From contig NZ_CP100455.1 of NCBI RefSeq assembly GCF_024228315.1, positions 310,001-374,000 on the forward strand: DNA of 64,000 bases, in the 5' to 3' direction. Position numbers and translations under genes: made by a program. The DNA comes from Halomarina pelagica. Lineage in GTDB: Archaea > Halobacteriota > Halobacteria > Halobacteriales > Haloarculaceae. The notes below the pieces were generated by a model, which was given only the letters and a program-made list of their open reading frames with translations, searched no databases and was not told where the DNA came from. Numbering within the stretch: position 1 is the first letter of the stretch; each line of letters opens with the position of its first letter. Below, one piece after another: positions 32,222 to 33,716 of this stretch.

Positions 32222-32295
32222 TAGTATAACTATTCAGTAACACTATTTAGTATTAATATTCAGTGCCACCAGATAGTGTCGATGTTCAGTGCTAC
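32222..32295 (+). repeat. Three 22-bp direct repeats (iterons) at exact 26-bp spacing
   Basis: Copies at 32222-32243, 32248-32269 and 32274-32295. All three share TAGT at positions 1-4, T at 6 and 10, TTCAGT at 12-17 and AC at 21-22. Pairwise identity is 18/22 and 16/22 for adjacent copies. Spacers are 4 bp, giving a 26-bp period of about 2.5 helical turns. They stop 63 nt before the ParA-type ATG. Such arrays upstream of parA act as a centromere or operator for the partner protein in other systems. Confidence 0.7.
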
Positions 32296-32307
32296 GACTT
32301 ATTTAGA

Positions 32308-32319
32308 CAGACTCGTCTG
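32308..32319. repeat. 12-bp inverted repeat next to the iterons
   Basis: CAGAC-TC-GTCTG, lying between the iterons and the TATA box, so it could be an operator overlapping the promoter of the ParA-type gene. Confidence 0.45.
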
Positions 32320-32326
32320 ACTAGTC

Positions 32327-32334
32327 TTTATTAT
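32327..32334 (+). promoter_or_regulatory. TATA box of the ParA-type gene
   Basis: TTTATTAT is centred 28 nt upstream of the ATG at 32359, so the mRNA is probably leaderless and the iterons lie just upstream of the promoter. Confidence 0.6.
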
Positions 32335-32358
32335 CGTACGGTCGATGACGTCGGGTAG

Positions 32359-33243
32359 ATGCTCACGTACACGACCTACTCCGAGGCGGGCGGCGTCGGG
32401 AAGACGACCATCTCGGCGAACTGCGCGGTCGCCCACGCGCGGGCGGGGTACGACGTGCTCGTCGTGGACATGGACCCGCAGGACGGGAGCCTCAGCTACC
32501 TCCTCGACGTCGACGACGAGCGGGCGACCGGCGGTGCCGACAACCTCGTCCGACACATGATCGGGCGGCCGCAGGGTCCGTTCGCGGACCTCGTCCGCGA
32601 AACCGAACACGGCGTGGACGTGGTGCCCTCGCACAACATGCTCGAGCGGCTCACGGAACTGCTCATGAAGACGGCCGACCTCGAGGAGGACACCCACCCC
32701 GACCCCGACTACGTCTACCCGATGCACGAGCAGCTCCTCCGCGTGATCCGGGAGGCGGACGTGCCGTCGCGGTACGACGTGCTCGTCGTCGACCCGCCCG
32801 CGACGGCCGGCCCGCACCTCTACAACGCGCTCTTCGCGACGCGAAACCTGGTCATCCCGCTCGAACTCTCCGGGAAGGGCGAACAGTCGGTCGCCGGGTT
32901 GCAGGACCTCGTCGACGGTCTCGAGGCGGAACTCGGGATCAACATCGGCGTGCTCGCGGCGATCCCGAACGGGGTGAAGGGGACCTCCGATCAGGAGTCC
33001 TACCTCGCGGAACTCGAGGAGCTCGGCTTCGACGTGCCGGTCGTCGTCCGCGACCGCACGTCGCTCATGGAGGGCTGCTGGCGACGGCAGTGCTCGGCGT
33101 TCACCTACGTCGAGCGACACCGTAAGCGCAAGCGCGACTACGAACTCGAGACGCTCTCGCAGTTCGAGACGCTCGCCGAGCACCTGGTCGCGCAGGTCGG
33201 GCTGAACGCCCCCGAGCAGCCGCGCGCCGAGGTCGACGCATGA
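32359..33243 (+). CDS. ParA-family ATPase (plasmid/chromosome partition type)
   Basis: The 294-residue protein starts TYSEAGGVGKTTISANCAVAHARAG, a ParA/MinD P-loop; note that the signature Lys before GG is Ala here, a variant I recall in haloarchaeal ParA proteins. VLVVDMDPQDGSLSYLL is the A-prime motif, and YDVLVVDPPATAGPHL the Walker B-like motif. It should drive segregation of DNA bound by a partner protein. Its last codon overlaps the start of the next gene (ATGA). The start at 32359 fits the TATA box. Confidence 0.88.
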   Translation: MLTYTTYSEAGGVGKTTISANCAVAHARAGYDVLVVDMDPQDGSLSYLLDVDDERATGGADNLVRHMIGRPQGPFADLVRETEHGVDVVPSHNMLERLTELLMKTADLEEDTHPDPDYVYPMHEQLLRVIREADVPSRYDVLVVDPPATAGPHLYNALFATRNLVIPLELSGKGEQSVAGLQDLVDGLEAELGINIGVLAAIPNGVKGTSDQESYLAELEELGFDVPVVVRDRTSLMEGCWRRQCSAFTYVERHRKRKRDYELETLSQFETLAEHLVAQVGLNAPEQPRAEVDA

Positions 33244-33716
33244 AGCCCGGCGCGGGTGACGACCCGTTCGCGGACGACGCGGACGCCGAACGGCCGAACG
33301 CCGAAGGGGCGGACGGGAGGGAGGGGGCGGAACCGGACGAGTCGAGCGAACCGTCGACCGCGTCGCCCGTCGATAAACCGTCCACGACGATACCGTCTTC
33401 GGACGACCGGCCCGAATCGGAGACGGCACCGGCGGCATCGCCGGGGACCGACGGATCGCCCACCGTGGCGGAACTCGACATCCCGTGGGTCCTCCGCCGG
33501 AGTTCCGTGAAGAGCGACCGCGACAACGTCCACCAGTTCTTCCTCCGGGACGACACGGCGCGCGGCGAGCGGGAACTCCGGTCCGAGGTCGAGCGCCTCC
33601 TCGGGAAGGAGGTCTCGAAGCTCGACCTCCGGGAGGCCGCCTACCTCGTCGCGATGGACCACCCCGAGGAGGTCGCCGCGACCCTCCGGTCGTGGGGGTA
33701 CGACTACCTGGAGTGA
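33240..33716 (+). CDS. Small ParA-partner candidate with disordered N terminus
   Basis: The 158-residue protein has an acidic, low-complexity N-terminal half (residues 1-80, rich in Asp, Glu, Ser and Pro). A folded C-terminal half reads VKSDRDNVHQFFLRDDTARGERELRSEVERLLGKEVSKLDLREAAYLV. It has no ParB nuclease-like motif. Translation is coupled to the ParA-type gene by a 4-nt overlap, and such small genes are the usual DNA-binding partner in type Ib or III partition loci. The DNA-binding role is inferred. Confidence 0.75.
   Translation: MKPGAGDDPFADDADAERPNAEGADGREGAEPDESSEPSTASPVDKPSTTIPSSDDRPESETAPAASPGTDGSPTVAELDIPWVLRRSSVKSDRDNVHQFFLRDDTARGERELRSEVERLLGKEVSKLDLREAAYLVAMDHPEEVAATLRSWGYDYLE

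Follow-up and report, generated by a model that had tools for sequence, protein, structure and literature searches.

The window analysed here is a 64,000-nucleotide stretch of the Halomarina pelagica genome, corresponding to bases 310001-374000 of the 617-kb replicon C2. Within it, a gene for a ParA-type ATPase is followed by a small partner gene and preceded by an array of short direct repeats, an inverted repeat and a TATA-like element (Table 1). An initial annotation had described an AT-rich island in GC-rich DNA, in which repeats, an inverted repeat and a TATA box precede parA and a coupled partner gene, and all of these were recovered: the island has a GC content of 0.36 versus 0.69 in both flanks and contains the window's most AT-rich 80-bp stretch, the inverted repeat and the TATA-like element follow the repeats, and the two genes overlap by 4 bp. 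The parA transcript is probably leaderless.

Table 1. Features of the parA-partner locus, in window positions
Feature	Position	Strand	Remark
Six 13-bp direct repeats (iterons), consensus YAGTNNNACTATT, AGT-NNN-ACT dyad	32222..32299	+	proposed centromere and operator
Inverted repeat CAGACTCGTCTG	32308..32319	.	overlaps conserved GTCTGAC element
GTCTGAC element	32315..32321	+	exact in 50/66 parA loci
TATA-like TTTAT	32327..32331	+	about 28 bp ahead of ParA start codon
ParA-type ATPase, 294 aa, P-loop EAGGVGKTT	32359..33243	+	
Ala10 codon, replaces signature lysine	32386..32388	+	Ala or Ser in 66/66 pairs
Lys173 codon	32875..32877	+	kept in 66/66 pairs; aligns with McdA lysine 151 (numbered without tag)
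Partner, 158 aa, outside known families	33240..33716	+	start overlaps parA stop
Conserved N-terminal peptide MKPGAGDDPFA of partner	33240..33272	+	first Lys invariant (66/66); proposed ParA-contacting peptide
C-terminal domain of partner	33480..33713	+	confident helices in second half; proposed DNA-binding domain

The repeats had been described as three 22-bp iterons at a 26-bp spacing. Repeats do begin at 32222, 32248 and 32274, but the array repeats every 13 bp and is made of six units (TAGTATAACTATT at 32222, CAGTAACACTATT at 32235, TAGTATTAATATT at 32248, CAGTGCCACCAGA at 32261, TAGTGTCGATGTT at 32274 and CAGTGCTACGACT at 32287). The 22-bp repeats correspond to units 1, 3 and 5 plus part of the unit following each, and unit lengths of 22 and 26 bp were rejected. 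Self-similarity of the locus at lag 13 gave z = 4.7 relative to first-order Markov resampling of the same sequence. When 1.94 Mb of the genome was scanned for 13-bp periodicity independently of sequence, only seven 78-bp segments exceeded z = 5 at lag 13; two were GC-rich repeats, four were the regions upstream of all four ParA pairs of the genome (C1:137244, C2:388, C2:342359, which is the window locus, and C3:454), and one lay beside orc1.

The ATPase resembles ParA/Soj Walker-type ATPases in fold and family (best E 8e-15, to Soj/ParA), and its predicted model (mean pLDDT 85) matches structures of Soj/ParA and of McdA. The deviant Walker A motif with its signature lysine (KGGxxKT/S) is absent; Ala replaces this lysine in the window protein, as the initial annotation had stated, and Ala or Ser does so in every one of the 66 pairs compared. 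All 66 also contain Lys-Gly after the PxE motif (K173 and G174 in the window protein), and in a profile alignment K173 coincides with a lysine of Cyanothece McdA that is residue 171 of the 6non chain and, with Met1 at residue 21 there, corresponds to Lys151. In McdA, Lys151 has been proposed to stand in for the signature lysine, and the haloarchaeal proteins show the same combination of a missing signature lysine and a candidate substitute in the PxExxxKG region. McdA is without the signature lysine yet is an active ATPase (reviewed in PMC9178275). Judged from the sequences, loss of the signature lysine is a family-wide feature and not decay, and K173 is a candidate for the relocated lysine. 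Outside cyanobacteria, there is thus a family of ParA proteins that invariably lack the signature lysine and invariably carry one at the McdA position. In divergent members (L024, L025, L026, L033, L034 and L065) the P-loops read ESGGIHKT, EAGGAHKT, ESGGTYKT or ESGGTFKT, the Gly that precedes the catalytic lysine being replaced by His, Tyr or Phe.

In the partner, an MKxGxGxDPFA-like N-terminal peptide is joined by an acidic linker, in which Asp+Glu make up about 31%, to a C-terminal domain of ~78 residues. This domain is predicted to form an extended stretch and then three helices, which are confident at residues 104-121, 127-139 and 142-151. Nothing convincing was found for it in Pfam, NCBIfam or the PDB. 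It had been noted to have no ParB motif, and this held true, with no Pfam or NCBIfam match and no assignment to the ParB sequence family; its profile found no PDB match that would indicate similarity to SegB. An RHH identity was unsupported by Pfam, the PDB, Foldseek, or HHalign against local RHH_1 proteins, the order of strand and then helices being only suggestive. By all family searches the partner also differs from McdB, and the locus is found on plasmids, which counts against an association with McdB or carboxysomes. Since there was no convincing family match, we did not file the protein as ParB, SegB or RHH.

ParA and partner occur together in 66 of 67 loci. The partner profile matches 261 of the 391 genomes sampled from the order (68 of 87 genera), and window-type ParA is matched by 181 plasmid records (1e-30). 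In a 393-genome sample of the phylum (E 1e-30), no match fell outside the order, to which all 48 matched genomes belong. Family pairs with 13-bp arrays are present on pNRC200 of Halobacterium salinarum NRC-1 and pHME132 of Haloferax mediterranei, the partner homologue on pNRC200 being VNG_RS11710. Near relatives of the window locus are in Halomarina halobia PSR21 (92% ParA identity), where it is located on a 1.16-Mb plasmid and the array is kept, and in Halomarina sp. BCD28 (76-77% ParA identity), where a 94.5-kb plasmid has the order parA, partner, orc1. A virus origin was considered and rejected, as only three related IMG/VR contigs were found (L127, L128 and L129, 47-54 kb) and the phage collection held no close relative. 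These contigs encode the ParA pair, and may be plasmids that were classed as viruses.

Conservation of the iterons was evaluated upstream of parA in 67 loci, because a lack of repeats in orthologous loci would count against the proposed function. Mean z was 4.1, 3.75 and 2.5 at lags of 13, 26 and 39, respectively, while no other lag between 4 and 44 reached 1; in 60 of the 67 loci one of these three lags scored best. The array signal was weak or absent in a few loci (L004, L006, L007, L014, L055 and L229). Unsupervised 13-bp scans also picked out the regions upstream of parA in the window's genome, pNRC200 and pHME132. The architecture is therefore conserved, while the repeat sequence differs by subfamily, examples of the types being YAGTNNNACTATT (window), GTTCATT, TTAGATAAG-like, TATAGCTA, TTACAGAT and ATTAGGTGGATG. 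General palindromy of the units was not borne out, being clear only in some classes (mean z 0.8).

The differences among repeat types allowed their covariation with each protein to be measured. Distances between repeats correlated with those between partner C-terminal domains (Mantel r = 0.56), and the correlation was retained given ParA (0.34, p = 0.0002, though among related sequences the significance of partial Mantel tests can be exaggerated); for repeats and ParA given the partner it was 0.01 (p = 0.42). Sets of 43, 30 and 17 non-redundant representatives gave the same outcome. Once GTTCATT, the largest clade, was removed, partner and ParA explained the repeats equally, with a partial r of 0.21 each. 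Since parA sits between the repeats and the partner gene, linkage alone would favour ParA. These correlations support, but do not prove, the idea that the partner is the reader of the repeats.

Arrays of the window's class also occur away from parA on C2. A weight matrix built from the units of the window locus and its H. halobia orthologue identified five sites on C2, at 226.9, 342.2, 400.7, 460.0 and 490.4 kb; all doublets scoring at least 21.0 were on C2, and the best score elsewhere, in 1.32 Mb of other replicons, was 20.8. Whole genomes were also searched with the exact doublet pattern, allowing at most one mismatch, with the reversed pattern as control. In the window genome 13 of 13 doublets were on C2, in H. 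halobia 18 of 19 were on its C2, and in BCD28 10 of 10 were on C5, the 94.5-kb plasmid, although the pattern is nearly palindromic, so that matches on both strands count one place twice. Reversed patterns gave 0, 0 and 1+1 matches, respectively. Among other Halomarina genomes, the same pattern gave no match in G002 and G005, and one dyad place on C1 in G006. The arrays are thus replicon-specific for the class tested; for the GTTCATT class, further places were found on the parA replicon in G005, G006 and G047. A second class-1 array was seen in BCD28 at C5:68350-68520, within the long gap before a gene for a TFIIB-type zinc ribbon protein, and TFIIB-family genes are present on pHME132 too.

At 226.9 kb, the array is flanked on both sides by gene 3' ends, as orc1 and another gene converge on it, and so is not a promoter. 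Neighbouring genes of the 537.2-kb array of H. halobia and the 400.7-kb array of the window genome have the same lengths and the same order. These positions bear on the possibility that the 13-bp array is an autoregulatory operator of the parA-partner operon only, and not a centromere. Such a role would suit the placement of the array, which in nearly all loci immediately precedes the TATA-like element, and the result that no distal arrays were found on pNRC200 or pHME132, the 13-bp scan flagging only their parA upstream regions. However, same-class arrays are located far from parA on the replicon, including the one between convergent gene ends, arrays are replicon-specific in three species, and one array-flanking gene set is common to two species, making an operator-only role unlikely. 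In the hybrid array at C2:226905-226990, two window-class units are followed, without a break in the 13-bp register, by units of the C2:388 class, which suggests a single site that may be read by two partition systems of one replicon.

Several arrays have initiator genes as neighbours. A class-1 array of H. halobia is 1.8 kb from a 94% identical Orc1, an Orc1-like gene is found about 6-7 kb from both the 537.2-kb and the 400.7-kb arrays, and in BCD28 orc1 adjoins the pair itself, raising the question of whether Orc1/Cdc6 or a RepH-type initiator binds the repeats as replication iterons. We consider this still less probable than an operator-only role, because the parA loci of the window, pNRC200 and pHME132 have no adjoining initiator yet carry the array upstream of parA, and because the repeat class tracks the ParA-partner pair.

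The preferred explanation, which we regard as likely from the features above, is that a haloarchaeal secondary replicon is partitioned here by a ParABS-like system, whose partner belongs to no known family and whose 13-bp iterons form a centromere specific to the replicon. ParA with a small downstream partner and upstream repeats is the layout of type I ParABS, and the earlier reading of a self-contained partition locus is the best supported one, with the 13-bp unit and the family-wide P-loop change as corrections. It had also been proposed, from the lack of a replication initiator gene in the window, that this might be an integrated or chromosomal site. Orc1/Cdc6 matches of the genome do all fall outside the window; C2 has one match to the Orc1/Cdc6 C-domain, at 227 kb, and another Orc1-like gene around 394 kb. 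Since the locus is inside a 617-kb secondary replicon with two ParA pairs, as well as further repeat arrays, "integrated" fits if it means that one replicon holds two systems, but "chromosomal" does not. The second pair at C2:388 and the missing adjoining initiator might also point to a decaying remnant of an integrated plasmid, in which the P-loop change reflects lost function, but this is most improbable given that the change is universal in the family, K173 is invariant, both genes are open, and the 92% identical orthologue of H. halobia has kept its array. That the pair positions non-DNA cargo, as McdAB does carboxysomes, deserves virtually no weight, for although McdA ranks with the closest relatives of solved structure and has the same lysine change, the iterons covary with the operon, the location is on plasmids and the arrays are replicon-specific.

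Type Ib plasmid loci, such as TP228 ParFGH and pSM19035 delta-omega, have a ParA, a small centromere-binding protein and upstream iterons. The haloarchaeal locus is like them in gene order, overlapping coupled genes, a short ParA without an N-terminal HTH, upstream direct repeats and a small partner with a disordered N-terminus. In contrast, its partner matched none of their proteins in the PDB search, and it has a 13-bp unit, the P-loop AGGVGKT with K173, and further arrays on the replicon. Cyanobacterial McdA/McdB share a Walker A motif without the signature lysine and a lysine aligned with K173; however, McdA positions carboxysomes, the haloarchaeal partner is unrelated to McdB by any search made, and no DNA iterons are known for McdA/McdB. 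In Sulfolobus SegAB, too, the gene of a ParA-type ATPase overlaps that of an archaeal partner, and sites lie upstream of the two genes (PMC5120986), but SegB was not recovered from the PDB by the haloarchaeal partner profile. SegAB sites are one conserved 13-bp palindrome (PMC12284271), whereas the haloarchaeal sites are direct tandem repeats in divergent classes, and their main setting is plasmids, not the chromosome. The plasmid ParA paralogues of Halobacterium salinarum, sojA, sojB and sojE (pNRC100/pNRC200), are also comparable, as pNRC200 has window-family pairs and 13-bp arrays. Published data on these soj genes concern expression only, which is misregulated without CdrS (PMC7439475), and the papers found by our literature search contained no description of the partner and arrays. 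The same search, with most subscription journals outside its coverage, returned no earlier description of the ParA-partner-iteron system. The kind of system is itself known; new here would be the partner family, the 13-bp arrays, which are class-specific and have distal sites confined to one replicon, and the lack of the signature lysine throughout the family.

We infer binding, ATPase stimulation, segregation and incompatibility from sequence comparison, as follows. The C-terminal domain of the partner would bind the 13-bp iterons ahead of parA, which would serve as the centromere and probably as an autoregulatory operator too, and would also bind same-class arrays elsewhere on the replicon. 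The Lys-containing N-terminal peptide, carried on the acidic disordered linker, may contact the ATP-bound ParA dimer and stimulate its ATPase, with ParA using the invariant K173 after the core sheet in place of the Walker A lysine, as proposed for McdA. Replicon copies would then be pulled apart on nucleoid-bound ParA by a diffusion ratchet, and distinct repeat sequences per subfamily would allow several replicons to be told apart within one cell. Each large plasmid may thus carry its own address for passage to daughter cells. How halophilic archaea segregate chromosome and megaplasmids simultaneously was listed as an open question in a review of archaeal segregation (PMC5120986). The proposed system offers a concrete, testable answer, with named proteins, DNA sites and replicon-specific sequences, and its presence on pNRC200 and pHME132 places it on plasmids of hosts open to manipulation.

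Of the 50 loci with an exact match, 49 have the GTCTGAC element at -41 to -45 relative to the start codon, just 5' of TTTAT, and its presence is independent of repeat class. The pattern GTCTGAC-N5-TTTAT, a rare putative promoter element, had 59 matches in 14 genomes, compared with 1 for the reversed pattern, and is a candidate mark of a segregation/replication regulon. A broader and more tentative proposal, to which we give roughly a one-in-three chance, is a dedicated multi-replicon segregation code, in which about a dozen or more ParA-partner subfamilies would each have their own 13-bp iteron class at parA and at further sites, including near replication initiators, and the shared GTCTGAC element would co-regulate parA, smc and orc1 as a regulon. 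Besides the parA copy at window positions 32315-32331, GTCTGAC-N5-TTTAT in the window genome precedes the smc operon and another gene of the ParA family, located on C4, and a further copy lies 220 bp 5' of an orc1; these additional copies are at C1:2277296, C2:393591 and C4:125884.
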